Part shown: in pieces, positions 22,687-42,507 of the stretch | Numbering within the stretch: the first letter of the stretch is position 1 | How the letters are laid out: each line of letters begins with the position of its first letter | NCBI RefSeq assembly: GCF_014196625.1 | Contig: NZ_JACIDZ010000008.1 | Location: 62,001-126,000 of the forward strand | DNA: 64,000 nt | Direction: 5' to 3' | DNA from: Martelella radicis | GTDB taxonomy: Bacteria; Pseudomonadota; Alphaproteobacteria; Rhizobiales; Rhizobiaceae | The notes under the pieces: model-generated | What the model saw: the letters and a program-made list of their open reading frames with translations, nothing else | Database searches by the model: none | What the model was told of the DNA's origin: nothing | Program-made: the position numbers and the translations under genes

Positions 22687-23913
22687 CTACTCGGCCCTGG
22701 CCGTCGTCTTCGGTTTCGACCAGAGTTCCCTGTCGCGTCTGGCCGTCAGGGCGGCGCCGGCCTCGATCATGGTTTCGATGATGCCCTCGTCGTATCCGAG
22801 CGTCCTCAGGATCTCTGCCGTGTCCTCGCCGAGAAGCGGCGGAGCGTCGGCTCGACCCTGCGTGCGCAGAAGCGCCGGTATCGGGAAGTCTGGCGAGGCG
22901 AAGTCGTAATCGCCAAACACGAATTCGGAGACCTTGTCGCCGGCCATGGCCTGCGGGGCCGCGAGCACCCTGTCTGCGGAGAGGATTTCGGTGAAGCCGA
23001 CGCCCTGCCGGGAGAGCTTCTCGGTCAGGACGTCGTAATCCTCTGCGCCGACGGCAGTGGCCACCATCTCTTCCACGCGCGGGCGCTCGCGTCTGCGGTC
23101 GCGAAGGCCCGCAAGCGTCGGGTCGGGAGCGATGCCAGCCGCCGCGCAGAATTTACGCCAATGATCGTCCGTCAGCATCACGAGATAGATCCAGCGTTTG
23201 TCCCGCGTCTCGTAGGCGCCATAGCCGGGTATGCTGAACTCCGCCGAGGGTTCTGTCTCCGGACGTCCGAGAAGCTGTGATTTGAGCTGAACGCCAAGCA
23301 GATCGCGAGCGGCGATGTGCAGTCCGGTTTCGTAAAGTCCAAGCTCGATATTGCGCTTGGCCGGATCGTCCGAAAGAAGCGCCGAGAGGACGGCGATTAC
23401 CGCATAGCAGCCGGCGAACTGATCATGATAGGACGGGCCAAGCCTGGAGGGGCGGCCGTTGACGCGGTTGGAAAACATCACGCCCGTTGCCGCTTCGGCG
23501 ATCGGGTTCGACGCTACCTCTTCTTCAAGCGGTCCCGCGCCATAGCCTTTAATATGGCAGAAAATGATCTCGGGATTGAGCCTGATGCAGTCCTGATATG
23601 TCGCCCCGAGCTTTCGCGCCGCCGATGGGGAGAGATTGTGCACGACGATGTCGCAATCTTCGATGAGACGACGGAAGACCGCTCGTCCCTGATCCGACTG
23701 AAGGTCGAGGCAGAGGCTTTTCTTGCCGCGGTTGAAGGCGAGATAGCTGCCGCTCGGGCCGCCACGCACCAGTTTGCGGGTCGTTTCGCCGGCCGGCGGT
23801 TCGATCTTGATCACCGTTGCGCCCAGTTGCTGGAGAATGTGCGTGGCGAAGGGCGCGGCGATCATGCTGCCGAGTTCCAGCACCGTCTTGCCCGCCAATA
23901 TCCCGTTTTTCAT
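22687..23913 (-). CDS. Class III CoA-transferase (CaiB/BaiF family), Glu variant
   Basis: CaiB/BaiF-family protein of 408 residues with LGATVIKIEPPAGE and NRGKKSLCLDL in the N-terminal CoA-binding part. Where most members carry the nucleophilic Asp in an xxDA/xxDS motif, this one has Glu195 (LGLYETGLH). It may still transfer CoA, work as part of a hetero-oligomer, or be a racemase-like relative. It starts at 23913 after GAGGGAGG. It is divergent from the Liv transporter operon, and the shared gap holds two copies of the AAAATGCAT motif, so the two are probably co-regulated. Confidence 0.85.
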   Translation of the reverse strand: MKNGILAGKTVLELGSMIAAPFATHILQQLGATVIKIEPPAGETTRKLVRGGPSGSYLAFNRGKKSLCLDLQSDQGRAVFRRLIEDCDIVVHNLSPSAARKLGATYQDCIRLNPEIIFCHIKGYGAGPLEEEVASNPIAEAATGVMFSNRVNGRPSRLGPSYHDQFAGCYAVIAVLSALLSDDPAKRNIELGLYETGLHIAARDLLGVQLKSQLLGRPETEPSAEFSIPGYGAYETRDKRWIYLVMLTDDHWRKFCAAAGIAPDPTLAGLRDRRRERPRVEEMVATAVGAEDYDVLTEKLSRQGVGFTEILSADRVLAAPQAMAGDKVSEFVFGDYDFASPDFPIPALLRTQGRADAPPLLGEDTAEILRTLGYDEGIIETMIEAGAALTARRDRELWSKPKTTARAE

Positions 23914-23994
23914 TCACGCCTCCCTCATCGCGCCGCGCCGCAATGGCACCGATTGGCGCTATGACTGTCAGGTTCGTGGCGATTTGACAAGATT

Positions 23995-24009
23995 AAAATG
24001 CATTATTTT
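23995..24009. promoter_or_regulatory. Operator motif copy A (AAAATGCATTATTTT)
   Basis: A 15-base near-palindrome, identical base for base with the copy at 32756-32770. It stands 82 bases upstream of the divergent CoA-transferase gene. The probable ligand is the GntR/FCD regulator encoded at 31366. Confidence 0.6.
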
Positions 24010-24116
24010 GGGCGAACGAGGACGATGTTGACGCAGTCATCGAACCAGGGATGGAGCGAAAAGACCGAAATATAGCGCTTTTTAATTGAGGCCAAGCCGG
24101 ATTCGTCACTCAAAAA

Positions 24117-24135
24117 TAAAATAAGATGCATTTTC
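24117..24135. promoter_or_regulatory. Operator motif copy B (AATAAGATGCATTTT)
   Basis: Read on the minus strand it begins AAAATGCAT, sharing the core of copies A, D and E with an altered right half. It lies just upstream of the -35 box of the transporter operon. Confidence 0.55.
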
Positions 24136-24137
24136 TA

Positions 24138-24165
24138 TTGACCTCTTGGCGGGGCCTGCTATCGT
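24138..24165 (+). promoter_or_regulatory. Candidate promoter of the Liv-type transporter operon
   Basis: TTGACC (24138-24143) and TATCGT (24160-24165) are separated by 16 bases, about 40 bases ahead of the binding-protein start codon and next to operator copy B. The -10 box is a moderate match. Confidence 0.45.
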
Positions 24166-24203
24166 CAGGCTGGAGGAACGAAACATGTTCGGGAGGAGAT
24201 CAC

Positions 24204-25412
24204 ATGTTTTCGAGACTGAGAAGGGTGGCCCCTGCGGCCGCCATTGGCGCAGTGCTGCTTTCCGCGGGGCCGCTGGCCGCTGCCGATCCCGGCATTGATG
24301 CCGAGAACAAGGTCGTCACCATCGGCGCTTTCACGCCGGTTACGGGACCTGTGCCATTCTATGCCATCCTGACCCATGCCGCAGAGGCTTATTACAAGAA
24401 CCTCAACGACAATGGCGGCATTGATGGCTGGACCATCAATTACGTGACCAAGGACGATGGCTACGAGCCCGCGCGCTCGGTCGCCGTTACCCGGCAGATG
24501 GTCGAGGATGACGGCATTTTCGCGCTGTCGGCGCCGATTGGCACGGCAACCAACGTCGCCGTTCTGCCCTATGCGCGCGAAGTTGATCTGCCCGTGGTCG
24601 GGCCGATCGGGGGCGCAAGCGCCTTCTTCGTCGAGCCGACCGTGTTTCCGCTGCTGCCGGATTATGGCTGGTCGGCGGCATCCAATGCGGACTACGCGAT
24701 CAACACGCTCGGCCACAAGAAGATTGCCCTGCTGTGGGAAAATGACGAACTCGGCAAATCGGCAAAGCGCGGTTTTGACGCCTATATGGCCGACCTCGGC
24801 CTGGAGCCGGCGGAGTCGATTCCCTTCGACGTGAAGACCACGAGTTTCAGTCCGCATATCCGTCGCGTTGCCAATTCCGGCGCGGATGCCGTGATCCTGT
24901 TCGGCTCCAACGCCAACCTGGCGGCCGCGCTGAAGGCGGCCGATCTGCAGGGGCTTGATGTCGACTGGTTCGCGCCGTTCTTCACCGCGGATCCATCCAC
25001 TTTCAAATTGGCCGGCGATCTGCTGGATGGCGTCTATTTCTCGTCCTGGCTTTTGCCCGTCAGTTCCGATGTGACGGATATTGCCGCCTACCGGGATTCG
25101 ATCAAGAAATACTATCCCGACGATCCGGTCGGCGTCTTCGGCCTCAATGGCTGGAGCAATGCGGCGATCTTCCACAAGGGATTCGAGGCGCTTCTGGCCT
25201 CCGGCAACGAACTGACCCGTGAAAACCTGATTGCCGCGCTGGAGACGCTGAAGGATGCCGATGTCGGCGGCGCGAAGGGCGTGACCTTCGAGCCCGGCGA
25301 TCATCGCGGCACCCGTCAGGAAGGCATCATCCAGGCCAAGGGCGACAGTTTCGAGCTGGTGCAGCCGTTCCGACCCTATCCCGCCGTGGTCTTCGACGCC
25401 AAGGCTGAGTAA
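24204..25412 (+). CDS. Branched-chain amino acid-type ABC transporter substrate-binding protein (LivK-like)
   Basis: Periplasmic binding protein of 402 residues with a Sec signal peptide (MFSRLRRVAPAAAIG...AAADP) and a Peripla_BP_6 fold (VTIGAFTPVTGPVPFY at the mature start, then KIALLWENDELGKSAKRG). The ATG at 24204 follows GGGAGGAG; the in-frame ATG at 24126 lies inside the operator and is rejected. HAAT-family binding proteins take amino acids but also aromatic and dicarboxylic acids, amides and urea. The neighbouring CoA enzymes favour an organic acid here. Confidence 0.9.
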   Translation: MFSRLRRVAPAAAIGAVLLSAGPLAAADPGIDAENKVVTIGAFTPVTGPVPFYAILTHAAEAYYKNLNDNGGIDGWTINYVTKDDGYEPARSVAVTRQMVEDDGIFALSAPIGTATNVAVLPYAREVDLPVVGPIGGASAFFVEPTVFPLLPDYGWSAASNADYAINTLGHKKIALLWENDELGKSAKRGFDAYMADLGLEPAESIPFDVKTTSFSPHIRRVANSGADAVILFGSNANLAAALKAADLQGLDVDWFAPFFTADPSTFKLAGDLLDGVYFSSWLLPVSSDVTDIAAYRDSIKKYYPDDPVGVFGLNGWSNAAIFHKGFEALLASGNELTRENLIAALETLKDADVGGAKGVTFEPGDHRGTRQEGIIQAKGDSFELVQPFRPYPAVVFDAKAE

Positions 25413-25420
25413 CAACCCTC

Positions 25421-25456
25421 GCGCGCCGCGTCAAAAGCGCGGCGCGCCTTTCTTTT
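25421..25456 (+). terminator. Hairpin with T-rich tail after the binding-protein gene
   Basis: GCGCGCCGCG and CGCGGCGCGC form a 10-bp stem with a seven-base loop, followed by CTTTCTTTT. It looks like an intrinsic terminator. Inside the operon it probably gives partial termination, leaving more binding-protein mRNA than mRNA for the downstream genes. Confidence 0.75.
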
Positions 25457-25491
25457 GAATTTGCAGATTTGAATGACGGGAGAACACAGGG

Positions 25492-26241
25492 ATGTCCCTG
25501 ATACCAGTCAGCGCACCGGCGCGGATGGACGGAAAGATCGCATTTGTAACAGGCGCTGCCGGCGGCATCGGCCGCGCCACGACGCTGGCGCTCGCAGAAG
25601 CGGGCGCGACGGTGATTGCCACCGATATCGCGGAAACGGCGGCGTTCGACCATCCGGCGGTCAGCTATCGCCGCTATGACGTGACCTCGCGGGAAGAGAC
25701 CGACGCGCTGGTGGCCGATATCCGCTCCGAACATGGCCGCATCGATGCGCTTATTCTGTGCGCCGGCACGATCTCGCACCGTCCGCTCGGCGAAAGCACC
25801 GATGAGGAATGGCGCGCCATTCTCGACGTCAACCTGATGGGCGTCGTCAATCCGGTGCGGGCAGTGTTCCCGGTCATGGCCGAGCAGGGCATGGGCAAGA
25901 TGGTGGCGCTCGGTTCCATCGCCGCCAAGATCGGCGGCGTCGCCTCCGGTCCGTCCTATGTTGCGGCGAAATCGGCCGTTCACGGGCTGATGAAATGGGT
26001 GGCCAAGGCCGGCGCGCCCCAGGGCGTCTATGCCAGCATCATCGCGCCCGGCCCGGTGGAAACGCCGATGTGGGAAACCGTGACCCAGCGCGCCGCGCCC
26101 TCTGCCAACGGCAATGTGCCGCTCGGCCGTTTCGGCCAGCCGGAGGATATCGCGCAGGCGATCCTGTTCCTGTGCTCGCCCGCCTCAAACTGGATCACCG
26201 GCACCGTTCTGGATGTGAACGGCGGCATGTTGATGGATTGA
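25492..26241 (+). CDS. SDR family oxidoreductase
   Basis: Short-chain dehydrogenase of 249 residues. The motifs TGAAGGIG (residues 20-27), CAG (90-92), Ser142, Tyr156 and Lys160 are all in place. ATDIAE after beta-2 suggests NAD. It is probably an alcohol or hydroxy-acid dehydrogenase acting on the imported compound. One base separates it from the next gene. Confidence 0.9.
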   Translation: MSLIPVSAPARMDGKIAFVTGAAGGIGRATTLALAEAGATVIATDIAETAAFDHPAVSYRRYDVTSREETDALVADIRSEHGRIDALILCAGTISHRPLGESTDEEWRAILDVNLMGVVNPVRAVFPVMAEQGMGKMVALGSIAAKIGGVASGPSYVAAKSAVHGLMKWVAKAGAPQGVYASIIAPGPVETPMWETVTQRAAPSANGNVPLGRFGQPEDIAQAILFLCSPASNWITGTVLDVNGGMLMD

Positions 26242-26242
26242 T

Positions 26243-27151
26243 ATGATGAGCAACAACGAGACGATCGGATTTATCGGGCTTGGCGTCATGGGCGGGCCGA
26301 TGTGCGCCAATATGGCGCAAAAGCATGGCGGCAAGGTTCTGGCCTTCGACCTTTCCGAGGCGGCGCTTGCGGCGGTGGAAGAGGCTGGCGCCGAGCGGGT
26401 CGGCTCGGTCGCGGCGCTGGCCGGTGAGGCCGACGTGATTTTTCTGTCGCTGCCCGGCGGGCCGCAGGTGGAAGCGGTGGCAGGTGAGATCGCGAAGGTT
26501 TCCGGCCGGTGCTCGCTGGTCGTCGACCTTTCGACCACGCCGGTGGCGACGGCCCGGAAGGTTGCCGCCAATCTTGCCGGACACGGCATCGATTTTGCCG
26601 ATGCCCCTGTCGCCCGCACCCGCGAGGCAGCCCGCAAGGGCGCGCTCGCGATCATGGTTGGCGCGTCCGATGCGGTTTACGCGCGTATCCGGTCGATGCT
26701 CGACTATATCGCCACCGACGTTACCCATGGCGGCGATGTCGGCGCGGGGCAGGTGCTGAAGCTGGTCAACAACATGCTGGTCTTCGCCAATACGGTGGCG
26801 CTGGCGGAAATGATGGTGCTCGGTGAAAAGGCCGGCGTTGCCCCCGATGTGCTGCTGGACGCGGTTTCCAAGGGCTCGGGCGACAGCTTCGTGCTGCGCA
26901 ATCACGGGCTGAAGGCAATGCTGCCGCGTGAATTTCCGGACAAGGCATTTTCACCGGAATATGTACTGAAGGACATTTCCTACGTGTTCGAACTGGCGGA
27001 GCAAGCCGGCGTGGCGCTGCCGTCCGCCGATGCGGCGCGTCGTTACTATGAGGTCGCGACCACGACGGATCTGTCGGGGCGCTATTTCCCCGGGGTGATC
27101 GAACTGGTGGAGCGCGGCGTCATGTCGGGCGACACGGGAGAGGAAGCATGA
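26243..27151 (+). CDS. NAD(P)-dependent beta-hydroxyacid dehydrogenase (3-hydroxyisobutyrate dehydrogenase family)
   Basis: A 302-residue protein of the HIBADH / tartronate semialdehyde reductase family. The nucleotide motif is GFIGLGVMGGPM (residues 9-20) and the catalytic Lys173 lies in GQVLKLVNNML. The substrate-binding motif, usually DAPVSGG, reads DAPVART (120-126), so the acid it recognises differs from that of the common enzymes. Two start codons are adjacent (26243, 26246). It overlaps the permease gene by four bases. Confidence 0.87.
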   Translation: MMSNNETIGFIGLGVMGGPMCANMAQKHGGKVLAFDLSEAALAAVEEAGAERVGSVAALAGEADVIFLSLPGGPQVEAVAGEIAKVSGRCSLVVDLSTTPVATARKVAANLAGHGIDFADAPVARTREAARKGALAIMVGASDAVYARIRSMLDYIATDVTHGGDVGAGQVLKLVNNMLVFANTVALAEMMVLGEKAGVAPDVLLDAVSKGSGDSFVLRNHGLKAMLPREFPDKAFSPEYVLKDISYVFELAEQAGVALPSADAARRYYEVATTTDLSGRYFPGVIELVERGVMSGDTGEEA

Positions 27152-28038
27152 GCGACATTTTCCGCGACCTCTTCCCGCTGCTCTGGTCGGGCATGATCAC
27201 CGGCTGCCTCTATGCGCTCGGCGCGCTGGGGTTGGTGATGATCTTCAAATCCTCGCGCGTGGTCAATTTCAGCCATGGCAATGTCGCCGGCTTCGCCGCC
27301 TTCCTGATCTACGGTTTCTCCAGCGGCGCGCTGATGCAGCTGAGCTGGGGCGCGGCGGTGCTGCTCGCCATCCTGGCGGTCATCGCGATTGCCTGCCTCA
27401 CCTATGCGGTGATTGCGCCGCTGGTGTTTGAAAGCGATCTCACCGCCACCATCGCGACGCTCGGCATCGGCTTGATCGCGCAGGGCGCGACGCTGCTGAT
27501 CTTCGGGGCGGATATCGTCAGCCTCGATCTGCCGGTGCCGCGCTTCGGCATGTCGGTGCTCGGGCTGTTCATCACTGGCTATGACCTGACCGTGCTCGCG
27601 GTCGCGGTCGTCACCATCGCGCTATTGTTTTTCGTCGTCGACTTCACCAAGCTCGGCGTCGCCTTCCGGGCGATCTCGATCAACCCCTTCGCGGCGGAGG
27701 TCTGCGGCCTCAACCTGCGCTCGGTCCACCTGTTTTCCTGGATCGTCGCGGCCGTGCTCGGCGTCGTCGGCGCGCTTCTGATCGTGCCGACCACGTTCCT
27801 GAGCGTCACCACGGTCGCCGCCTTCATGCTGCAGGCCTTTGCCGCCGCGGTCATCGGCGGCTTCGCCAGCCTGCCGGGCGCGCTCGTCGGCGGCATTCTG
27901 ATCGGTGTCCTGATGAACCTTTTTACCTTCTATGTCTCGCCGGAATTTTCCAGCACCTTCCTGCTGGGCGTTATCCTTCTGGCGCTGAACATCTTCCCGA
28001 ACGGCATTCTCGCCCGGGTGGGAGGCAGCCGTGTCTGA
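27148..28038 (+). CDS. Branched-chain amino acid-type ABC transporter permease (LivH-like)
   Basis: First HAAT permease, 296 residues, with about eight hydrophobic helices and the typical N-terminus (LWSGMITGCLYALGALGLVM) and SHGNVAGFAAF motif. It forms a heterodimer with the next gene product. Overlaps with both neighbours show coupled translation. Confidence 0.92.
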   Translation: MSDIFRDLFPLLWSGMITGCLYALGALGLVMIFKSSRVVNFSHGNVAGFAAFLIYGFSSGALMQLSWGAAVLLAILAVIAIACLTYAVIAPLVFESDLTATIATLGIGLIAQGATLLIFGADIVSLDLPVPRFGMSVLGLFITGYDLTVLAVAVVTIALLFFVVDFTKLGVAFRAISINPFAAEVCGLNLRSVHLFSWIVAAVLGVVGALLIVPTTFLSVTTVAAFMLQAFAAAVIGGFASLPGALVGGILIGVLMNLFTFYVSPEFSSTFLLGVILLALNIFPNGILARVGGSRV

Positions 28039-29011
28039 TCATCCCGCAAGTCTGCAGAACGACCGTATCCTGCCGGCCCGGCTCGCATTGCGAAGCGACA
28101 TGCTGAACCTCGCGCTTCTCGCGGTGCTGCTGGTTCTGCCCTTCCTGCTCGGTGGGTCCTGGACTTTCGCGCTGGGCCTCTGCTTTGCCAATGCCATCGG
28201 CGTGCTGTCGGTGTCCGTGCTGGTGCGCTATGGCGGCGAGGTTTCGATCGGCCATACCTTTTTCGCGGCGGTGGGCGCCTATTCGGTTGCGGTGCTCGAC
28301 ACGCGCTACGGTCTTTCTGTGATCTTCAGCCTGCCGCTGGCGCTGGCGCTCGGCGTCGTCAGCGGCATCGCCTTTGCCTGGCCCTCGCGCAAGCTCTCGG
28401 GCATCTACCTCGCGGTCTCGACCATGGCGCTGGCGCTTGCCGTGCCGGAACTGATCAACAATATGGACGGGCTGACCGGCGGCTATGAGGGGCTCTATGT
28501 GGCGACCCCGGTCATCCCCGGCATGCCGATGGGATTGCAGCGTTATTATGTGGCCCTTCTGGTGCTTGCGGTCGCCGTCTATGGCGTGTCGCGGTTGCGC
28601 CATTCGCGGCAGGGGCTGGTCCTGTTGCTGTCGAAATCGCACCCGGCTGCCGCCGATGCCTTTGGCACGCGCCAGGTCTGGGCGCGGGTCGCCGTCATGG
28701 GCATCAGCGGCGGGATTGCGGCGCTGTGCGGCGCCATGCTCGGCTTTGCCGGATCGACCGTCAGCCCCAGCGGCTTCACCTTCTGGTCGGCGATCTTCCT
28801 GCTGGTCGGCTCCGTCGTCAGTTTCTACGGCCTCAGCCTGTGGCGGGCCCTGCTCGGCGGCGCGTTTCTGACGCTGGTGCCGCAATTGCTGTCCTCCTCG
28901 GGCGCGTGGATACCGGTGTTCTACGGCGTCGCCCTGCTCGCGATGATCCTTGCCGGCCATTACCTGCCGCGCCTTCGCGCGCTTGCGGCCAAGACAAAGG
29001 GAGACGACTGA
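28031..29011 (+). CDS. Branched-chain amino acid-type ABC transporter permease (LivM-like)
   Basis: Second HAAT permease, 326 residues, with the family motifs LVRYGGEVSIGHTFF and LSGIYLAVSTMALAL. It uses a GTG start (28031) and overlaps the livH-like gene by eight bases; GGGAGGCAGCC just upstream supplies the ribosome-binding site. Confidence 0.91.
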   Translation: MSDHPASLQNDRILPARLALRSDMLNLALLAVLLVLPFLLGGSWTFALGLCFANAIGVLSVSVLVRYGGEVSIGHTFFAAVGAYSVAVLDTRYGLSVIFSLPLALALGVVSGIAFAWPSRKLSGIYLAVSTMALALAVPELINNMDGLTGGYEGLYVATPVIPGMPMGLQRYYVALLVLAVAVYGVSRLRHSRQGLVLLLSKSHPAAADAFGTRQVWARVAVMGISGGIAALCGAMLGFAGSTVSPSGFTFWSAIFLLVGSVVSFYGLSLWRALLGGAFLTLVPQLLSSSGAWIPVFYGVALLAMILAGHYLPRLRALAAKTKGDD

Positions 29012-29787
29012 TGGACGCGATGGCAAAGGCGCTTCGCGGCGACGGCATTTCCTTGTCCTTCGGCGGCATCACCGTTCTGAAGGACCTTGATGTCGAATTC
29101 CGCGCCGGCGAAATCACCGGACTGATTGGTCCCAATGGCGCGGGAAAGACCAGCCTGTTCAACTGCATGACCGGCGCCTACCGGCCCCAGGGCGGCGCGA
29201 TCACCTATGCCGGCGAGAGCCTCGATGGCCTGCCGCCGGCAGCGCGCGCCGGCAAGGGCATCGTGCGCAGCTTTCAGCATGTGGCGCTGAGCCCCGATCT
29301 CACCGTGCTGGAAAACGTGATGATCGGCGTTGCCCGCAATTATCACGCCGGCTGGGCCCATGCCTTCCTACCGACAGCGCGCGGGCGCAACGAAATGGCA
29401 GCGATGCGCGAGGCCGCGATGGCGGCACTCGCCGAGCTCGGTCTGGCCCAGGCGGTGGACAAGATGCCGTCGCAACTGCCGCCCGGCATGCTGCGCCTCG
29501 TCGAGATTGCCCGCGCGATCGTCGGCAAGCCGGATGTGCTTTTGCTGGACGAGCCGGCGGCGGGCCTGAACAATTCGGAGACCCGCGACCTGATGCGCAG
29601 CCTCAGGCGGCTGGTCTCGCCCGATCTCGTCATGGTCGTGGTGGAGCACGACATGGACCTCGTCATGTCGATCTGCGACCGCATCTACGTGATGAATTTC
29701 GGCGCGCTCGTCACCTGCGGCGCGCCGGCCGATGTGCGCAGGAACGAGGATGTGATCCGTATCTATCTGGGGAGCGACGATGACTGA
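29011..29787 (+). CDS. Branched-chain amino acid-type ABC transporter ATP-binding protein (LivG-like)
   Basis: ATPase of 258 residues with Walker A (GPNGAGKTS), a divergent signature region (MPSQLPPGMLRLVEIARA) and Walker B VLLLDEPAAGLN. The signature lacks the usual LSYG/LSGG run: SQLPPG takes its place. The start at 29011 follows AAAGGGAGA and shares one base with the previous stop; the open frame before it is inside the permease gene. Confidence 0.9.
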   Translation: MDAMAKALRGDGISLSFGGITVLKDLDVEFRAGEITGLIGPNGAGKTSLFNCMTGAYRPQGGAITYAGESLDGLPPAARAGKGIVRSFQHVALSPDLTVLENVMIGVARNYHAGWAHAFLPTARGRNEMAAMREAAMAALAELGLAQAVDKMPSQLPPGMLRLVEIARAIVGKPDVLLLDEPAAGLNNSETRDLMRSLRRLVSPDLVMVVVEHDMDLVMSICDRIYVMNFGALVTCGAPADVRRNEDVIRIYLGSDDD

Positions 29788-30514
29788 TCTTCTGACCATA
29801 TCGGATCTCTCCGTCTTCTACGGCGCAAGTGCGCAGGCGGTGGACAGCGTCTCGTTTTCCGTGCCGACCGGTTCGGTCGTCGCGCTTTTGGGCGCCAACG
29901 GCGCGGGCAAGACCTCGATCATGAAGGCGATCGCCGGACTGATCCCTTCGGAAGGGCGCCAGGTCTTCAAGGGCGAGGATGTCTCGGGGCTTGCCGCACG
30001 CGAAAGGGTGAAGCGTGGCATTGTCTATGTGCCGGAAGGACGCGAAATCGTCGGCGACATGACGGTGCGCGAAAACCTGACCCTGGGCGGCTATCACCTC
30101 GGCGGCAGGGAACGGAAAACGCGTGCGGAGATGGTGCTGGACCTGTTTCCCGAAATCGCCAACAAGGCCGACCGGCACGCATGGCGGCTTTCCGGCGGCG
30201 AACAGCAGATGCTGGCGATCGGTCGCGGGCTGATGGCTAAGCCAAAGTTGTTGCTGCTCGACGAGCCTTCGCTCGGGCTTGCGCCGATGCTGGTCAGGCG
30301 GGTGTTCGACCGGCTGGGCGCGTTTCGCAGCGAAAGCGACCTGGCGATCGTGCTGGTCGAGCAGAACCTGGCGATGACGATGCGGATCTGTGACGAGCTG
30401 CATTTCCTGCGCGGCGGACAGCTTGTCGGCCACCGCACGGCCGAGGAATTGAGCGACAGCGCCGCCCGCCAGGAGGCGATCGATGCCTATCTTGGCGCCG
30501 CATCGGCAGCGTGA
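29780..30514 (+). CDS. Branched-chain amino acid-type ABC transporter ATP-binding protein (LivF-like)
   Basis: Second ATPase, 244 residues, with Walker A (GANGAGKTS), signature LSGGEQQMLAIGRG and Walker B LLLLDEPSLGLAP. YVPEGREIVGDMTVRENL is the LivF hallmark. It overlaps the livG-like gene by eight bases and completes the HAAT system SBP-H-M-G-F. Confidence 0.93.
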   Translation: MTDLLTISDLSVFYGASAQAVDSVSFSVPTGSVVALLGANGAGKTSIMKAIAGLIPSEGRQVFKGEDVSGLAARERVKRGIVYVPEGREIVGDMTVRENLTLGGYHLGGRERKTRAEMVLDLFPEIANKADRHAWRLSGGEQQMLAIGRGLMAKPKLLLLDEPSLGLAPMLVRRVFDRLGAFRSESDLAIVLVEQNLAMTMRICDELHFLRGGQLVGHRTAEELSDSAARQEAIDAYLGAASAA

Positions 30515-30525
30515 GGGGGGCGGCG

Positions 30526-31332
30526 ATGAGCGAGACCATCTGGAAGATCTACGGCATCCGCCACGCGATCAACCCGACGCGGACGCGCGGGCAGAACTTC
30601 ATCCTCGAAAGCGATCCGGAGGACAGCCTGCCGCTCGATTTCTATTCCTGGCTGCTGGTGAGCGATGACCGGGTCATCGTCGTGGATACCGGCATGGATC
30701 CGGCCAAGGCGGAAAAGCACGGCCATACCCATGTGCTGAGCCCGGTCGACGCGCTTTCAAGGCTGGGCGTTTCGGCGCGTGATGCTGACACGGTCATTCT
30801 GACCCATGCGCATTATGATCATCTCGGTTTTCTCGATGCGTTCGAGAAGGCGCATTTCTTCATGCAGGCCGAGGAAATGGCCTACGTCACCGGCCCGTGG
30901 ATGGAGAAATGGTGGTTTCGCCGGGCCTATGAGCCGGACGAGATCAACCGGCTGGTCAACCTGCTGCATGGCGGCCGGCTGACCCTGCACGGGCGTGAAA
31001 GCGAGATTGCCGACGGCGTGACGGTGCACTGGGTCGGCGGCCATTGCGCAGGCCAGGAAATCGTGCGGGTACGGACCGCACGCGGCCATGTGGTTCTCGC
31101 CTCCGATGCGCTCCATTACTACGAGGAATATGAGCGCGGCGTGCCCTTTGCCGTGGTGTTCAACTCCTCCGACATGATTGCCGCGCACGACACCATCCGC
31201 GCCCTTGCCGACAGCGATGATCATGTTCTGCCGGCGCATGATCCGCGCTTGGCCGAGATTTACCCCCGGCATGACGGTGAAGAGCATATTCTTCGCCTCG
31301 ATGCCGCACCAAAAGCTTGGAGCAATCCGTGA
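30526..31332 (+). CDS. Metallo-beta-lactamase fold hydrolase (N-acyl homoserine lactonase family)
   Basis: A 268-residue protein with the dinuclear zinc motif HxHxDH (His94, His96, Asp98, His99 in LTHAHYDHLG), a third-ligand region WVGGHCAGQE and the bridging Asp in LASDALHYYE. Relatives (AttM/AiiA group) open homoserine lactones, but here the gene is the last of a transporter operon, so a lactone or thioester in the same pathway is as likely. ATG 30526 after GGGGGGCGGCG is preferred to GTG 30511. Confidence 0.82.
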   Translation: MSETIWKIYGIRHAINPTRTRGQNFILESDPEDSLPLDFYSWLLVSDDRVIVVDTGMDPAKAEKHGHTHVLSPVDALSRLGVSARDADTVILTHAHYDHLGFLDAFEKAHFFMQAEEMAYVTGPWMEKWWFRRAYEPDEINRLVNLLHGGRLTLHGRESEIADGVTVHWVGGHCAGQEIVRVRTARGHVVLASDALHYYEEYERGVPFAVVFNSSDMIAAHDTIRALADSDDHVLPAHDPRLAEIYPRHDGEEHILRLDAAPKAWSNP

Positions 31333-31336
31333 AATA

Positions 31337-31367
31337 TTGCATTATCCCGGTGGAGCACTGGTATAGT
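31337..31367 (+). promoter_or_regulatory. Candidate promoter and operator-like word ahead of the GntR gene
   Basis: TTGCAT (31337-31342) and TATAGT (31362-31367) are 19 bases apart. The -35 word lies within TATTGCATTAT, which shares TGCATTAT with operator copies A and D. If this promoter is real, transcription starts after the GTG codon at 31366, and translation would begin at TTG 31399. Confidence 0.35.
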
Positions 31368-32034
31368 GGTTCGCGAAATTTCATGGAAGGTCAATACGTT
31401 GAAGCATCAGACCAAGGAAGAGCAAGTCGCGGATTACCTCAGAGAAGGCATTATTTCGGGCAAGTTTCCGCGCGGGTCGAAGCTGAAACAGGCCGAAATC
31501 GCCGAGAGCATCGGCATGAGCATCACGCCGGTGCGCGAGGCGCTGAAGCTGCTCGCGGCGGAAGGTTTCATTCTGGGAACATCGCATCGCGGCGCGACGG
31601 TCGCGCCTTTCGATATCAATGCGACGGAAGAGATCGTCGATCTGCGCGTGACGCTGGAATCGAAACTGGCGCTGCGCGGCATGGAGCGGCTGACCTCGCA
31701 GCAGGTCGACGAGCTGCGCGATCTGCAGGCGCAGCTGGAGGCGGCTGCCGCGCGCGACGACAAGGACGCGGTGCGCTCCATCAATTACCGCTTTCACGAA
31801 GTGCTTTATCTCGCGGCCGGTCTGCCGCAGACGCTGCGTTTCGTCCGGGCGCTGTGGGCGCGCTACCCCTTCGACCTGATCAACAGGCTGGAAAACCGGA
31901 TCGACCGCGCTTCCAAGGAGCATCGCGAGATGCTGGGCGCAATCCTGTCGCGCGACGAGGGGGCGATGCTGTCGGCATTGCGCAGCCACATTCGCGCCGG
32001 CTGGGACGAGTTCAAGGCCAGCTACACCGGCTAG
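31366..32034 (+). CDS. GntR family regulator, FCD subfamily
   Basis: Repressor of 222 residues (211 if it starts at TTG 31399, which has GGAAGG eight bases ahead). The winged helix covers about residues 17-85 (VADYLREGIISGKFPRGSKL, then MSITPVREALKLLAAEGF). The C-terminal FCD ligand domain has the metal-type histidines in NYRFHEVLYL and near KEHREML and RSHIRAGW. FCD regulators answer to small organic acids. It is the only regulator gene in the 22.7-38 kb island and the natural candidate for the repeated AAAATGCAT sites. Confidence 0.88.
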   Translation: MVREISWKVNTLKHQTKEEQVADYLREGIISGKFPRGSKLKQAEIAESIGMSITPVREALKLLAAEGFILGTSHRGATVAPFDINATEEIVDLRVTLESKLALRGMERLTSQQVDELRDLQAQLEAAAARDDKDAVRSINYRFHEVLYLAAGLPQTLRFVRALWARYPFDLINRLENRIDRASKEHREMLGAILSRDEGAMLSALRSHIRAGWDEFKASYTG

Positions 32035-32091
32035 GGCATCCTTCTGCCTGTTCCGGCCGGTTCGCCGAAACATTGCAGAGAGGAGACCCGA

Positions 32092-32673
32092 ATGCCTGCA
32101 GATAGCATCCTGCTTGTCATGGACATGCTCAACGACCTCGTTCATCCCCACGGGATGGGCGCAAAGACCTATGTTCCGCAGTGCCAGGAACGGGGCGTCT
32201 ATACCAATACGGAGCTTGCCATCCGCCGGGCGCGCGCAGCCGGGGTTATGGTTGGCTATGTCCGCGTCGGCTTTTCGCCCAGCTATGCGGAATGCCCGCC
32301 CACATCTCCGGTTTTCGCCAAGGCGCGCGATGCCGGGGTCTTCCAACTTGGAAGCTGGGGCACGGAAGTCTATTCGGACTTCGCGCCGCAGGAGGGCGAT
32401 CCGGATATCATCAAGCACAGGGTCAGTCCGTTCTACGCGACCAAGCTGGAGCCGCTGCTGCGTGCCCAGAGCATCAAACGGCTGATCCTCTGCGGCGTTT
32501 CCACCAATGGCGTGGTCTCCGCCGCCGTGCGCGAGGGGCACGACCGCGATTATGCCTGCGTGGTGCTGGAGGACTGCTGCGCCGGCGCGAACGCGGAGGA
32601 GCATGATTTCGCGCTCGCCGGCCTGCGCCGCTATGCCGAGATCACGACGGCCTCGGACGTCTCGTTCTCATAG
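32092..32673 (+). CDS. Isochorismatase-like cysteine hydrolase
   Basis: A 193-residue protein of the isochorismatase/nicotinamidase fold. The catalytic triad is Asp11 (LLVMDMLND), Lys108 (DIIKHRVS) and Cys134 (LILCGVSTNG), with the cis-peptide region after it. The cysteine indicates an amidase-type hydrolysis (such as maleamate, N-carbamoyl or nicotinamide-like substrates) rather than isochorismate. AGAGGAG precedes the start. It suggests the imported compound carries an amide or that a pathway intermediate does. Confidence 0.85.
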   Translation: MPADSILLVMDMLNDLVHPHGMGAKTYVPQCQERGVYTNTELAIRRARAAGVMVGYVRVGFSPSYAECPPTSPVFAKARDAGVFQLGSWGTEVYSDFAPQEGDPDIIKHRVSPFYATKLEPLLRAQSIKRLILCGVSTNGVVSAAVREGHDRDYACVVLEDCCAGANAEEHDFALAGLRRYAEITTASDVSFS

Positions 32674-32685
32674 AATGCATTTTAT
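32674..32685. promoter_or_regulatory. Operator motif copy C (AATGCATTTTAT)
   Basis: A shorter relative of the AAAATGCAT motif immediately after the cysteine hydrolase stop codon, 196 bases upstream of the dehydratase operon. Confidence 0.4.
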
Positions 32686-32755
32686 GGAGAGAGAATCCGG
32701 AAAATCGTGCCGGATTTCACTCCAATGCTTCGTTTTTCAAATGAATTTGCCGATA

Positions 32756-32770
32756 AAAATGCATTATTTT
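32756..32770. promoter_or_regulatory. Operator motif copy D (AAAATGCATTATTTT)
   Basis: Identical over 15 bases to copy A at 23995-24009, nearly 9 kb away. It lies 12 bases ahead of a TTGACC -35 word. Confidence 0.6.
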
Positions 32771-32781
32771 CTGAAAAATGA

Positions 32782-32810
32782 TTGACCAGAGAAAATAAAA
32801 TGCATTAACT
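32782..32810 (+). promoter_or_regulatory. Candidate promoter with operator copy E in the spacer
   Basis: TTGACC (32782-32787) and a weak -10 word TTAACT (32805-32810) are 17 bases apart. The word AAAATGCATTA (32797-32807), which matches copies A and D over 11 bases, lies between and over them, as expected for repression by steric block. Confidence 0.45.
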
Positions 32811-32880: not shown

Positions 32881-34101
32881 GTGACCATGGGCGACACCAA
32901 AGAGCAGACCAAGAAAGCCGTCGGCGGCGCGCCGGCCGAAGGACTGATCACGGACGAGGCAGTTGCGGCCGCCCGCAACATGATCGGCCTGCAGCTTCGC
33001 CCGGAAGGGCCCTATCTGCAGGACGCCACCACGGATACGCTGCGCAACTGGTGCAACGGCATCGGCGATCTGAACGCGCTCTATCGCGAACAGGAATATG
33101 GCCGCAATTCGCGTTACGGCGGCCAGGTGGGCCATCCGATGTTCCCCATGGCCTTTGGCTGGGTCGGACGCACCCGCTGGGGCCTGCCGGGCGTGCACGG
33201 CTTCTACGCCGGTAATGACTGGGAACTGTTCCGCCATATCCGTCCCGGCGATCGCATCAGCGCGATCGAGCGCGTTGTCGGCGTCGAGGAGAAGCAGAGC
33301 AAGTTCTCCGGCCGCCTGGTGCTGCAATATGTCGAGGCGAGCTATTCCAATCAGCGCGGCGAGCTTGTCGCCCGCGCGCTTGGCACCTGCACCCGCCACG
33401 AGCGCAAGGCCGCCCGCGATGCCGGCAAGTACAAGGACATCAAGACCCACGAATATACGGCTGACGAATATGAGGCGCTCGACGACGCGATCATGCGCGA
33501 GCCGGAACGCATTCGCGGCGCCAATGTACGCTACTTCGAGGATGTGACGGAAGGCGAGAGCCTCGACCCGATCGTGCGCGGCCCGCTGTCGCTGATGGAT
33601 ACGATGGGCTTCCTCGTCGGCTGCGGCCGCGGCCACACCCATGGCGTCGTGTTCCAGGCGGCGATGAAGCATCCGGGCCACTTCTTCCGCAATCCGGAAG
33701 CCGGTGGCGGCATTGAATATACCGGCATCGGCCACCACCGCGAAAGCACGGCCAAGGAGGTCGGCGTGCCCGGCGTCTATGATTACGGTCCGCAGCGGTC
33801 TTCGTGGATGGCCTCGCTGGTGACCAACTGGATGGGCGACGCCGCCTTCCTCAAGCGGGTCCGCACCGAAATGCGCCGTTTCAACACCATGGGCGACAGC
33901 ACCTGGTGCAAGGGCAAGGTCTCGCGCAAATACGTCAAGGACGGTCACGCGCTCGTCGACCTGGAGATCTGGGGCGAGAACCAGCGCGGCGAAGTCACCA
34001 CGCCGGGCGTGGCGACCGTGATCCTGCCGAGCCGCGATCCCGAGCTCAGGGTGTTCTTCGACGGTTCGGCGCTCGATCTCGAGCTCCCCGTCGTACGCTG
34101 A
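32881..34101 (+). CDS. MaoC / FAS1-type dehydratase domain protein (double hot-dog)
   Basis: A 406-residue acyl-CoA dehydratase/hydratase-like protein with two hot-dog folds (roughly residues 25-175 and 205-390). It is a paralogue of the gene at 42508: the run GVYDYGPQRSSW...VTNWMGD is shared nearly unchanged. The usual hydratase-2 motif GDxNPxH reads GDLNALY (62-68), with Tyr68 for the catalytic His. GTG 32881 is preferred because GAGAGGAGACTGACAC precedes it. It opens the CoA-transferase operon. Confidence 0.83.
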   Translation: MTMGDTKEQTKKAVGGAPAEGLITDEAVAAARNMIGLQLRPEGPYLQDATTDTLRNWCNGIGDLNALYREQEYGRNSRYGGQVGHPMFPMAFGWVGRTRWGLPGVHGFYAGNDWELFRHIRPGDRISAIERVVGVEEKQSKFSGRLVLQYVEASYSNQRGELVARALGTCTRHERKAARDAGKYKDIKTHEYTADEYEALDDAIMREPERIRGANVRYFEDVTEGESLDPIVRGPLSLMDTMGFLVGCGRGHTHGVVFQAAMKHPGHFFRNPEAGGGIEYTGIGHHRESTAKEVGVPGVYDYGPQRSSWMASLVTNWMGDAAFLKRVRTEMRRFNTMGDSTWCKGKVSRKYVKDGHALVDLEIWGENQRGEVTTPGVATVILPSRDPELRVFFDGSALDLELPVVR

Positions 34102-34110
34102 CGATGAAGC

Positions 34111-34147
34111 GCTCCCGCCGGGCCCGAAGAATGAGGCCCGGCGGAGC
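34111..34147 (+). terminator. GC-rich hairpin after the dehydratase gene
   Basis: GCTCCCGCCGGGCC and GGCCCGGCGGAGC pair with one bulged base around a ten-base loop, 9 bases after the stop codon. There is no U-tract, so it more likely stabilises the upstream mRNA or attenuates than fully terminates. Confidence 0.45.
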
Positions 34148-34211
34148 ACGATCGCAATGCCGGCGCGTCCCGCAACGGGAGCGCTCCGGGACTTGAGGAG
34201 GAGGTCCCGCC

Positions 34212-35372
34212 ATGCAACAGGACACGCCGCTCAGCGGCATCAGGATTGTCGAGCACGCCAGCGGCGTCGCCGGAGCCTGGGCCGGACGCCTGCTTGCCGC
34301 CATGGGGGCGGAGGTGATCATGGTCGAGCCCCCCGGGCTCTGCCCCTTGCGCAAGCGCGCGTCGCTTTTCGAAAACGGCAGCAGCGCGCTTTTCGCCTAT
34401 GTCGCGGCCGACAAGCGCAGCGTGGTTCTGGATCTTGCAACAACGGAAGGCCGGGGCGAGCTGGATGCCCTGCTTGCGGGCGCTGCCATCCTGATCGACG
34501 ACACGCCGCTTGGCGAGCGCGAGGCGCTCGGCCTCGATGAGGCCGCCATCGCCGCCCGTCACCCGGATCTTGTGCATCTTTCCGTGCTGCCTTTCGGCGC
34601 GACGGGCCCGAAGGCGGACTGGAAGGGCGAGGAAATCAATCTCATTCATGCCGGCGGCGAGGGCTATCTTCTGCCCAATGGGCTTTCGGCAACGCTGTTC
34701 CCGGACCGACCGCCGCTCAAGATCGCCGGCCACTTCGCCGAGATGCAGGGCGGCGTCGCCGCAGCGCTTGCCGGCCTTGCCGCGCTCTGGTCGGGCGAGG
34801 GGCAATTCGTCGACGTCTCGGTTCAGGACGCCAATCTCGCCGTCGGCGCCTTTGCGCTTCAGCGTTACGGCGACGGTTCGATCGAGCATCGGCTGACGCG
34901 TTCCTTCCGCTATGGCGGCGTGATCGAATGTCGCGACGGCTATGTCGAGCTGCTGACGCTGGAAGAGCGGCAGTGGCGCGGGCTTGTCGAACTCATGGGC
35001 CACCCTGAATGGGCCGCCGATGACGCCTTCAACGACGCCGTCGAACGCAGTGCGCGGGGCGAGATGATCAACCGCGAAATCCACGCCTTCGCGCGCGCCC
35101 ATGATGTCGGGGACATCGTGGCGCGGGCGCAGAAGCTCGGCGTGCCGATGGCGCGCTACAATGCGCCCGAACAGGTGCTTGCCGGCGCGCATGAGACCGC
35201 GCGCGGCATCTTCCAGAACCAGGAATGGCCGGGCGTCGGTGCATTCTCGGTGCAGACAGCGCCGTTCCGTTTCGGCGCAGAGGCGCCGCGGCTCGTAGCG
35301 CCAGCGCCTCAGCCGGGCGCCGATCAGGCGCTTGTCTCCTCGGCAACGGAAAAACGGAGGGCTTCGGCATGA
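34212..35372 (+). CDS. Class III CoA-transferase, Asp subunit of a tandem pair
   Basis: CaiB/BaiF-family protein of 386 residues with MGAEVIMVEP and DKRSVVLDL in the CoA-binding part. The expected nucleophile is Asp206 (DVSVQDANL). It overlaps the next CaiB gene by four bases (ATGA). Adjacent class III genes can encode heteromeric enzymes, as in benzylsuccinate CoA-transferase BbsEF. GAGGAGGAGG precedes the start. The predicted role is to load CoA onto the pathway acid in the cytoplasm. Confidence 0.87.
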   Translation: MQQDTPLSGIRIVEHASGVAGAWAGRLLAAMGAEVIMVEPPGLCPLRKRASLFENGSSALFAYVAADKRSVVLDLATTEGRGELDALLAGAAILIDDTPLGEREALGLDEAAIAARHPDLVHLSVLPFGATGPKADWKGEEINLIHAGGEGYLLPNGLSATLFPDRPPLKIAGHFAEMQGGVAAALAGLAALWSGEGQFVDVSVQDANLAVGAFALQRYGDGSIEHRLTRSFRYGGVIECRDGYVELLTLEERQWRGLVELMGHPEWAADDAFNDAVERSARGEMINREIHAFARAHDVGDIVARAQKLGVPMARYNAPEQVLAGAHETARGIFQNQEWPGVGAFSVQTAPFRFGAEAPRLVAPAPQPGADQALVSSATEKRRASA

Positions 35373-36562
35373 AACCGCTTGCCGGCATCAGGATCGCCGA
35401 TTTCACCGTTCATGCAGCAGGTCCCTTCTGCACGCATATGCTGTCGCAGCTCGGCGCCGAATGCATCAAGATCGAGACCGCGCTTCGGCCCGATATCTTT
35501 CGCAAATCCCATGCGGTCTACGGCCGCGCGGGACCGGCGACCTTCGACCAGGTGGCCTCCAACAAATTGTCGGTGCGGCTGAACCTCAAGCATCCCGAGG
35601 GCGTGGCGCTGGCCAAGCGGCTGGTTGCAAGCTCCGACCTGGCCGCCGAAAGCTTCCGCGCCGGGGTGATGGAGCGGCTGGGGCTCGGCTATGAGGCGCT
35701 GAAGGCGGTCAGACCCGATATCGTCATGGTCTCCGTCTCGTCATCAGGCCAGTCCGGTCCCGACAGCCATTTTGCCGGCTATGCGCCGCTGTTCGGCGCC
35801 TGGGGCGGGCTTGGGCATTTGACCGGCTACGAGGACGGTCCCCCGGTGGAAATGCGCCATGTCATGGATCATTCGGTTGGCATGAACGCAGCGCTTGCCG
35901 CCGTTGCCGCCCTGACGCGGCGCAGGCGAACGGGCGAAGGCTGCCATGTGGATATCGCCGCGCGCGAGGTTGCTTCGTCGCTCGCCGGCGACGCGATCAC
36001 GGCGGCGTCGGCCGGCGTGCCCCAGCATCGCAGGGGCAATGCCGACCCGCAATTCGCTCCGCACGGGCTTTATGCCACGCGCGAGGAAGACCGCTGGCTC
36101 TCCATCGCCGTCACCTCGGATGCCGAATGGGCAGCGCTTGCCGGCATCATCGGTCATCCGGAGCTTGCGGGGGATTCCCGTTTCGCAACCGCTGCGGCGC
36201 GCATCGAAGCGCGCGCGGCGCTGGACGCGATCATCGCCGCATGGGCGGCGGGCGTGGAGGCCGAAGCGGCGGCACGCGACCTTCAGACAAAGGGCATTGC
36301 CGCGCATGTTTCCTGGCGCGCCGCCGATATCGCCGCCGATCCTCATATGCGCGGCCGCGGCAGCGTGGTGGAGGTGACCGAGACCGACGGGAGCAAGCGC
36401 ATGGCGGCCGGCTTTCCCGCACGGTTCTCGGCAAGCGATGCGCCGGGCATGACGCGCGGCACGCCGGGTCTCGGCGAACATGAGGAATATGTTTACGGCG
36501 CGCTTCTGGGGCTTGGCCGCAAGGAACGCGCCCGGCTCGTGGAAGAGCAGGTCATCTACTGA
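35369..36562 (+). CDS. Class III CoA-transferase, Glu subunit of a tandem pair
   Basis: CaiB/BaiF-family protein of 397 residues. The N-terminus (LAGIRIADFTVHAAGPF) and LGAECIKIE motif are normal. At the nucleophile position it has Glu200 (VDIAAREVA) instead of Asp. The translational overlap with the Asp-containing gene before it suggests a heterodimer in which this subunit is structural or has altered chemistry. The start ATG 35369 is fixed by the family N-terminus; the open frame upstream lies inside the preceding gene. Confidence 0.86.
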   Translation: MKPLAGIRIADFTVHAAGPFCTHMLSQLGAECIKIETALRPDIFRKSHAVYGRAGPATFDQVASNKLSVRLNLKHPEGVALAKRLVASSDLAAESFRAGVMERLGLGYEALKAVRPDIVMVSVSSSGQSGPDSHFAGYAPLFGAWGGLGHLTGYEDGPPVEMRHVMDHSVGMNAALAAVAALTRRRRTGEGCHVDIAAREVASSLAGDAITAASAGVPQHRRGNADPQFAPHGLYATREEDRWLSIAVTSDAEWAALAGIIGHPELAGDSRFATAAARIEARAALDAIIAAWAAGVEAEAAARDLQTKGIAAHVSWRAADIAADPHMRGRGSVVEVTETDGSKRMAAGFPARFSASDAPGMTRGTPGLGEHEEYVYGALLGLGRKERARLVEEQVIY

Positions 36563-36591
36563 TCGCGACGCTGATTTGAGGGAGAGAGAGT

Positions 36592-37458
36592 TTGACAGTT
36601 GAAGCCGCAATGCGCGAGGCAGGTCCCGAAAGCGCCATCGGGCGCCGTGAGAGCAAAACCGAGACGATCCTGGCAGAACGGGTTGCAGCGCTCGTTGAGA
36701 CGCTGGAACTGCCGGACATGCCGGTTGCAGGCCAGGCCTTGCCGGCGGGGTTTCACTGGCTGTTCTTCAACCCCTTCGTCCGTCGTTCCAGTCTCGGCGT
36801 CGATGGTCATCCGAAGACCGGCGGCTTCCTGCCCGATACCGGCCTGCCGCGTCGCATGTGGGCCGGCGGCCGCATCTCCTATCACGCGCCGCTTGCCGTC
36901 GGCGCGGTCGCCGAGAAGGAGAGCGAAATCCTCGATGTCGTCGAAAAGAACGGTCGCGCCGGACGCCTTGTCTTCGTCACCGTCCGCCACCGGATTTCAA
37001 GTGGCGGGACGCTTTGCATCGAGGAGGAACAGGACATCGTCTATCGCGAGCCGCCGGCGGCCGATGCGCCGAAGCCGGTTCCGGCCGCAGCCCCCGACGG
37101 GGCGGCCTGGACCAGGGAGGTCAAGCCTGATCCCGTCCTGCTGTTCCGTTATTCGGCGCTGACCTATAACGGCCATCGCATCCATTACGACCGACCCTAT
37201 GCCACGCAAGAGGAGGGCTATCTGGGCCTCGTCGTCCACGGGCCGCTGGTCGCCACGCTGCTGCAGGATTTCGCCCATCGCTGCCGGCCGGAGGAAAGGC
37301 TGACGCGGTTCGAATTTCGCGGCATGGCGCCGCTCTTCGTCGATGACAGCTTTGCGCTGGAAGCAGCGGAAGGCGAGACGCCGGACCGCCTTTCGCTCTG
37401 GGCCAGGGGCCCTAACGGCGAACTGGCGATGAAGGCCGAAGCGGTGTTCGGGGGGTGA
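36592..37458 (+). CDS. Mesaconyl/itaconyl-CoA hydratase-like protein (FAS1-DH/MaoC, HTD2 type)
   Basis: A 288-residue double hot-dog protein. The stretch FRYSALTYNGHRIHYDRPYA followed by GLVVHGPLVATLL is the hallmark of the group containing mesaconyl-C4-CoA hydratase and itaconyl-CoA hydratase, and it includes the His and Asp expected for catalysis. It likely hydrates an unsaturated dicarboxylic acyl-CoA made by the CoA-transferase pair. The start is a TTG (36592) after GGGAGAGAGAG; ATG 36610 is an alternative. The stop shares one base with the lyase start. Confidence 0.85.
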   Translation: MTVEAAMREAGPESAIGRRESKTETILAERVAALVETLELPDMPVAGQALPAGFHWLFFNPFVRRSSLGVDGHPKTGGFLPDTGLPRRMWAGGRISYHAPLAVGAVAEKESEILDVVEKNGRAGRLVFVTVRHRISSGGTLCIEEEQDIVYREPPAADAPKPVPAAAPDGAAWTREVKPDPVLLFRYSALTYNGHRIHYDRPYATQEEGYLGLVVHGPLVATLLQDFAHRCRPEERLTRFEFRGMAPLFVDDSFALEAAEGETPDRLSLWARGPNGELAMKAEAVFGG

Positions 37459-39981: not shown

Positions 39982-39984
39982 GTC

Positions 39985-40770: not shown

Positions 40771-40796
40771 TTCATCCCTCCCGAATGTCCATTTTC

Positions 40797-40833: not shown

Positions 40834-40911
40834 AGCTAGATGTTTCTCTACCTTTGTCAATGAGCACGGCGGCGGAACAAGCCGCTGTGGAGGAATTGGG
40901 AGGAGAGCTGC

Positions 40912-42471: not shown

Positions 42472-42507
42472 GCGGCAGCGCGCAATCATCTTCCAAGGAG
42501 GAACAAG

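Follow-up and report, generated by a model that had tools for sequence, protein, structure and literature searches.

Conserved palindromic sites point to probable control of a catabolic module by an FCD-type GntR regulator in Martelella radicis

Regulators of the FadR subfamily, as described in PMC4494728, combine a GntR winged helix with an FCD domain and have palindromic, AT-rich operators with the consensus TKGT/ACMA or NyGTNxACNy. The GT...AC boxes are usual without being obligatory, the same text naming members that do not conform, among them BioR, with the operator TTATMKATAA. Here we analyze a 64,000-nucleotide stretch of the Martelella radicis genome (contig NZ_JACIDZ010000008.1, positions 62,001 to 126,000; hereafter, the window) encoding a regulator with the same two domains, together with a set of AT-rich palindromic repeats. 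A previous reading based on the letters of this DNA alone (the sequence-only reading) had proposed that these repeats tie three transcription units into a single GntR/FCD regulon. This proposal is well supported by the conservation of the repeats, by their position ahead of the genes that lead each unit and by their co-occurrence with the regulator, and we consider it very probable that they are operators through which the FCD-type GntR protein encoded at 31399-32034 controls a self-contained catabolic module, presumably as a repressor.

The two copies of the 15-mer AAAATGCATTATTTT from which the proposal started, at 23995-24009 and 32756-32770, are both present and constitute the only exact copies in the 4,985,483-base genome. 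Allowing up to three mismatches, the window holds ten matches to this word against 0.44 expected, a count reached in none of 100 shuffles, and the related copies described near 24120, 32670 and 32797, together with a weaker word at 31338, were all located. What did not stand is the 15-mer as the natural unit: the conserved unit is an even palindrome of 12-16 bp centred on TG|CA, ATAATGCATTAT, with the extended form RNAWAATGCATTWTNY. A 16-bp scoring matrix compiled from 129 sites in closely related loci, with the window left out, returned the five main sites of the sequence-only reading as the five best in the window (19.7-26.2), followed by a weaker sixth. From left to right, these are O1 (23993-24008, TTAAAATGCATTATTT, score 26.2), which contains most of the first 15-mer copy; O2 (24121-24136, ATAAGATGCATTTTCT, 19.7), centred 9 bp upstream of the TTGACC at 24138-24143, which belongs to the operon with the Liv-type transporter; O3 (31332-31347, AAATATTGCATTATCC, 15.6), a weak operator before the regulator gene and a possible site of autoregulation; O4 (32670-32685, ATAGAATGCATTTTAT, 25.0), overlapping the stop codon of a hydrolase gene; O5 (32754-32769, TAAAAATGCATTATTT, 25.4), located 84 bp after O4 and containing most of the second 15-mer copy; and O6 (32795-32810, ATAAAATGCATTAACT, 23.1), 41 bp after O5. 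The next match (31441-31456, 13.9) lies within the regulator gene and was rejected as an operator; only one of 25 close loci scores at least 12 there, and for lack of conservation we take it to be a chance match. The best score in the window outside the island is 13.3.

The possibility that the motif is frequent elsewhere in the genome, which would have spoken against a dedicated operator, was examined by a genome scan and found not to hold. A perfect RNANAATGCATTNTNY occurs in the whole genome at O4 alone, and seven of the 21 places within one mismatch of it fall within this region of about 9 kb, although one of the seven, inside the regulator gene, is probably due to chance. The window as a whole contains eight such matches against 0.31 expected, again unequalled in 100 shuffles. 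The shorter word AATGCATT is found 23 times, with four copies in the island, one at window position 8006 and 18 elsewhere. Island copies match 4, 3, 3 and 3 of the four flank letters of the extended form, and the 18 copies outside the window are poor in them, matching three letters once and otherwise one or two.

Conservation in related islands, which the sequence-only reading had put forward as a test, holds in close loci and in most distant ones. We define as close the 25 loci (L003-L027) in which the GntR orthologue shares at least 70% identity, and as distant the 55 loci (L028-L082) in which the regulator is 50-57% identical and gene order is often different; gene calls in these counts are approximate, combining BLAST matches and long open frames. 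AATGCATT is present in all 25 close loci, with 89 non-coding copies and one coding, and lies outside genes in 45 of the 55 distant loci, with 75 non-coding copies and eight coding. It ranks first among the 64 palindromes composed of six A/T and two G/C letters. In the distant group some GC-rich 8-mers reach as many loci as AATGCATT, which is expected because the DNA is GC-rich. Beside AATGCATT, position -2 is A (and +2 is T) on 88% of sides in close loci and 94% in distant loci, and position -4 is a purine on about 80% and 93%, respectively. Given that the local promoters are AT-rich within a GC-rich genome, the words might be suspected of being fortuitous AT-rich matches or copies of a dispersed repeat. 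The runner-up among palindromes of this composition reaches only five copies in close and six in distant loci, against the 89 and 75 of AATGCATT, and letter-shuffled upstream regions attain a score of 14 in at most 1.3% of cases for close loci and, for distant loci, in 4.1% for livH and at most 0.5% for other genes. These counts rule the explanation out for practical purposes, and we assign it a negligible probability.

De novo motif search by expectation maximization (EM) with palindromic symmetry, allowing at most one site per region and a first-order background, recovers ATAATGCATTAT in both groups from the regions upstream of the dehydratase, binding-protein and caiB1 genes; an earlier EM run on the close set had drifted to plain AT-rich sequence. 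A 13-bp odd palindrome, ATGCATNATGCAT, was considered as the unit and rejected, the 12-bp even form scoring higher than the 13-bp odd form in close (371/195) and distant loci (562/457). At 16 versus 17 bp the even form leads in the close set (419/302) and ties in the distant set (613/615), and at 20 versus 21 bp the odd form is ahead in the close set (241/350), where the even run was possibly stuck in a poor optimum, and slightly behind in the distant set (710/703). The core of the palindrome is therefore settled, and its outward layout is not. Around the sites, second ATGCAT-like words recur at an offset of 7 bp (20 for the 89 close sites and 49 for the 74 distant sites), every other offset counting four or fewer. 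Double sites of the form ATGCATAATGCAT, in this 7-bp register, lie upstream of caiB1 in eight close loci (L006, L008, L010, L011, L012, L016, L018 and L027).

The sites precede the genes that lead transcription units. Scanning 300 bp upstream and counting a score of at least 14 as a site, we find sites in close loci ahead of the binding-protein gene in all 23 cases, caiB1 in 21 of 23 (these two mostly sharing one divergent region), the dehydratase gene in 25 of 25 and the regulator gene in 6 of 25. None were found in the 22-25 close loci scored for each of the SDR, 3-hydroxyisobutyrate-dehydrogenase-like (HIBADH), livH, livF, metallo-beta-lactamase-fold (MBL), isochorismatase-like, caiB2, caiB3, itaconyl-CoA-hydratase-like and citE genes. 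Since the matrix was built from those same loci, this tally is a description and not an independent test; the distant loci do provide one. In them gene order differs and other genes lead the units, and sites appear before the dehydratase (37/47), caiB1 (25/29), binding-protein (9/9), livH (8/17), hydratase-like (8/26), regulator (8/54) and citE (4/19) genes, with none before SDR (15 regions), HIBADH (31), livF (20), MBL (1), isochorismatase-like (41), caiB2 (45) or caiB3 (44).

The position of the operator relative to promoter words is also conserved. At the dehydratase promoter, the distance from the start of TTGAC to the operator centre is 21 bp in 17 cases, 22 bp in six, and 20 and 23 bp in one each, so that 24 of 25 close loci and the window share a spacing of 20-23 bp, the exception being L026, which has none. 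In the window, the presumed -35 word TTGACC (32782-32787, + strand) starts 21 bp before the centre of O6, and the presumed -10 element, TTAACT (32805-32810), falls inside this operator. The spacing thus implies that the operator covers the spacer and the presumed -10, from which we propose that a protein bound there would block polymerase; its partners, O5 and O4, have their centres 41 and 125 bp upstream. The window spacings of 84 and 41 bp lie near whole DNA turns, as do those of L004, L005, L007 and L013 (42-43 and 84-85 bp). We make no claim of helical phasing for the operators as such, the whole-turn spacings of about 42, 84 and 126 bp being joined by others of 96-97, 108-110, 118-119, 133, 149 and 157 bp. 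A TTGACC word in the fitting direction stands beside O2 and O6. This does not hold for O4, which has none near, or for O1, whose centre is preceded on the + strand by TTGACA at a distance of 17 bp and which lacks a TTGAC facing caiB1; O5 does not adjoin such a word, lying 20 bp before the TTGACC beside O6.

The divergent region between caiB1 and the binding-protein gene could be compared in 22 stretches (the window and 21 of the 25 close loci; two lack the pair and two are not divergent). In 12 of these, the window and 11 loci, the operator centre lies 9-10 bp before the TTGAC facing the Liv-type operon; in two it lies 22 bp after it, and eight loci carry a double site at 17 and 24 bp after the TTGAC facing caiB1. 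A centre 9-10 bp before TTGAC corresponds to about position -44, where activators can sit, and E. coli FadR is annotated in the public record as a dual regulator. The GntR protein might hence bind as an activator or a dual regulator, a variant of repression that does not exclude it. Against this stand two blocking positions: that of the dehydratase operator, which in the window and all but one of the 25 close loci lies over spacer and -10, and that of the caiB1 double site, whose centre follows TTGAC by 20.5 bp in eight of the 21 loci. On balance, we regard this variant as rather unlikely.

For repression by the FCD-type GntR protein we propose the following mechanism. We infer that a dimer would read the palindrome (R)N-A-W-AATGCATT-W-T-N(Y), and that the six sites would govern three units: the CaiB gene to the left, the Liv-type unit for transport and oxidation to the right, which includes the regulator gene, and the dehydratase operon. 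The operator bound at the promoter of this last operon would lie over the spacer and -10 between TTGACC and TTAACT, with the partner sites upstream, and the one at the Liv-type promoter, centred 9 bp upstream of the -35 word, could either block or activate. A carboxylic acid or CoA-ester derived from the degraded compound, held in the His-rich FCD pocket, may release the regulator.

The regulator gene lies in an open frame that begins at GTG 31366 and ends at 32034 on the + strand, and matches to FCD (4e-21) and GntR (2.7e-14) were obtained with this longer frame. The true start is likely TTG 31399, because most distant orthologues have Met at the corresponding position and GGAAGG lies just upstream. 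The protein contains a GntR winged helix-turn-helix (PF00392, 53.0 bits, cut-off 27; residues 18-79) and an FCD domain (PF07729, 76.2 bits, cut-off 24.3; residues 89-210), in which H144, H186 and H208 are conserved in at least 90% of close and distant sequences; we take these to be the histidines of a putative FCD metal/ligand pocket. Residues 52-59 (SITPVREA) and 41-42 (KQ) are identical in 80 of 80 orthologues.

Several other proteins might be thought to read these sites. The FCD-type GntR gene had been taken for the only regulator in the island, and it is the sole regulator conserved with the module; an IclR-type gene (39985-40770, - strand) does, however, lie nearby, 1.7 kb beyond the module. 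This gene has no match in the 25 close loci (tblastn, E 1e-10; four loci cut short by contig ends), and among distant loci 29-34% matches appear in two, L062 and L030; judging by these matches, it is not part of the conserved module. A global regulator is suggested by the resemblance of O2 to AAGATGCATTT, which we assume to be the NsrR half-site. The NsrR site consists of two ATGCAT words 11 bp apart, and this offset is seen once in close and twice in distant loci, against 20 and 49 instances of the 7-bp offset. In 21 carrier genomes, chosen from 80 named loci plus Pararhizobium ih9 (G121), with sites counted by hand, 58 of 84 ANAATGCATTNT sites fall within the fetched regulator loci of up to about 20 kb each, a concentration that is not expected of, and so disfavours, a global regulator. 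Binding by the IclR-type protein or a global regulator is accordingly given a very small probability, and the conserved GntR protein remains the preferred reader of the sites. The carrier of L003 has no strict ANAATGCATTNT site, and a genome of the same genus without the regulator (G081) has two.

The genes under this putative control fall into the three units originally described: a CoA-transferase gene, a Liv-type operon ending with the regulator and a hydrolase, and a dehydratase operon. The leftward unit is caiB1 (22687-23913, - strand), encoding a family III (CaiB) CoA-transferase (PF02515, 1.5e-77). The Liv-type unit (24204-31332, + strand) comprises a binding protein, an SDR, a HIBADH-like protein, livHMGF-like genes and the MBL hydrolase, of whose nine genes six have a Pfam match (those for the binding protein, SDR, HIBADH-like protein, livH, livF and MBL); its order is conserved in the close loci that extend that far, and its last gene, after the regulator, encodes an isochorismatase-like hydrolase (32092-32673, + strand; PF00857, 6e-40). 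The dehydratase operon (32881-38261, + strand) encodes, according to Pfam and NCBIfam, a MaoC-like dehydratase, which has only weak MaoC-type relatives among solved structures, two CaiB CoA-transferases and two further enzymes. The latter are an itaconyl-CoA-hydratase-like protein (36592-37458, + strand; PDB 8khg, 239 bits) and a citramalyl-CoA-lyase-like CitE protein (37455-38261, + strand; PDB 8khl, 188 bits); the NCBIfam RipC/Ccl model scores 149.6, below its cut-off of 375. From the resemblance of these two enzymes to itaconyl-CoA hydratase and citramalyl-CoA lyase, terminal reactions of the itaconate/citramalyl-CoA type are predicted, in which a branched C5 acid would probably be converted to acetyl-CoA and pyruvate as the end products of the pathway.

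A gene for a ScpC-like succinyl-CoA:acetate CoA-transferase adjoins the module in five close loci, to the left of caiB1 in L008, L010, L011 and L018 (L018:1-1041, a piece cut by the locus end that scores 490.5 against a cut-off of 500) and to the right in L015 (20129-20650). Two operators lie upstream of it in all five loci (scores 18.5-29.3), identifying it as a predicted extension of the regulon in these relatives. No ScpC-like gene was found in the genome of the window at E 1e-60, and a 44-47% relative is encoded elsewhere in the genome of two out of five further carriers. On the far side of the dehydratase operon, a separate catabolic block (38325-44190) includes the IclR regulator, a CaiB gene, a thioesterase-like gene, an acyl-CoA ligase, another MaoC-like dehydratase that shares about 34% identity with that of the module and, identified by eye only, a TRAP-like gene.

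The distribution of the module is patchy. Within the family of the window the regulator is found in 2 of 151 genomes (E 1e-40), and the dehydratase is found in 8 of 397 genomes of the order and 3 of 385 in a sample of the class (E 1e-100), the genome of the window being included in each count. The module genes recur with the GntR gene in several orders, accompanied by the operators. In a tree of the regulator covering 42 of 81 rows, the sequence from the window clusters with those of Jiella, Rhodobium, Maritimibacter and Salipiger at a support of about 80-89, and Pararhizobium ih9, which belongs to the same family as the window, falls among mostly Rhodobacterales (96/85). Horizontal spread is the likely explanation. 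Two loci, L107 and L108, at first taken for module copies without the regulator, are the same loci as L061 and L052, which carry it. Near a 63% identical dehydratase (L110) there is no ATGCAT in 4.2 kb, and the best GntR match of that genome reaches 36%, although this is one case only. The contig concerned (C92 of G610, with L110 and L118) holds a diverged module copy, with the 36% GntR gene on the same contig, and provides a natural case for finding an alternative operator.

Several observations weigh against the proposed regulon. In the genome of the window, 18 copies of AATGCATT lie elsewhere, and in carrier genomes 26 of the 84 ANAATGCATTNT sites lie outside the loci, two of them within 0.7 kb of a locus end. 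The scores of close loci are not independent of the matrix, and locus counts include near-duplicates (e.g. L043/L044). Among the 55 distant loci, ten lack a non-coding copy of AATGCATT, and in seven of these the word is missing altogether; 10 of 47 distant dehydratase upstream regions lack a site at a score of 14, and the locus type of L052/L061 has its operators at other places. The regulator's own site is weak and patchy, and the Liv-promoter site fits simple blocking less well than the dehydratase site. Finally, L109, a module copy with an 82% identical dehydratase, shows no ATGCAT in 3.2 kb, though just 476 bp upstream are covered; its genome carries a 53% GntR gene on another contig, and the case appears uninformative or slightly unfavourable.

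Alignment with E. coli FadR places A43 of the regulator at R35 (A, Q, T, V, L or D in the 79 named of 80 orthologues) and I53 at R45 (I in 80 of 80), and R49 is kept as R57. According to PMC4494728, an Arg at the first place is linked to the G of TKGT, and on our own reading this place is FadR R35. The loss of this arginine fits, as a correlation, an operator without GT...AC. Going further, this GntR lineage might have switched its DNA-reading code, losing two FadR-type arginines and adopting a GT/AC-free ATGCAT operator in overlapping 7-bp registers, with the regulator taking a whole regulon of promoters and operators along between hosts and acting as a block at some promoters and as an activator at that of the transporter. 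We offer this composite view tentatively and with less than even confidence.

A search of the literature by title and abstract start returned no description of this operator or regulator, the broadest result list being covered in part. The analysis adds a readily testable operator, regulator and target list for a catabolic module that was not found described in the literature searched and that occurs in several classes of Proteobacteria, and some 80 naturally varied regulator-operator pairs from which to learn how GntR proteins without the usual arginines read DNA.

Among described pathways, the itaconate/methylsuccinate cluster of Pseudomonas and Cupriavidus, described in PMC12290011, has relatives of itaconyl-CoA hydratase and citramalyl-CoA lyase in common with the module; unlike that cluster, the module has a MaoC-like dehydratase, several CaiB genes, a Liv-type transporter and a GntR regulator, and none of the words GntR, LysR and regulator appears in the main text of that paper. 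By sequence, the best solved relatives of the regulator are McbR (PDB 4p9f) and the TM0439-type proteins (3fms/3sxy, which we take to be TM0439), at a low similarity of 58.8-68.7 bits. The recognition stretch GMSITPVREAL is common to McbR and the window protein; McbR and the TM0439-type proteins regulate other genes. The BioR operator resembles the one described here in being a short, even, AT-rich palindrome outside the family consensus, and differs from it in sequence. BioR itself regulates biotin genes. FadR-family operators can carry, according to PMC4494728, an extra half-site 7-12 nt from the centre, to which the second word at 7 bp can be compared. Centred on TG|CA, with the consensus ATAATGCATTAT and without GT...AC boxes, the operator departs from the FadR-family consensus, and the system is a new and unusually clean case of ordinary gene control in which the operator lies outside the usual consensus of its family.

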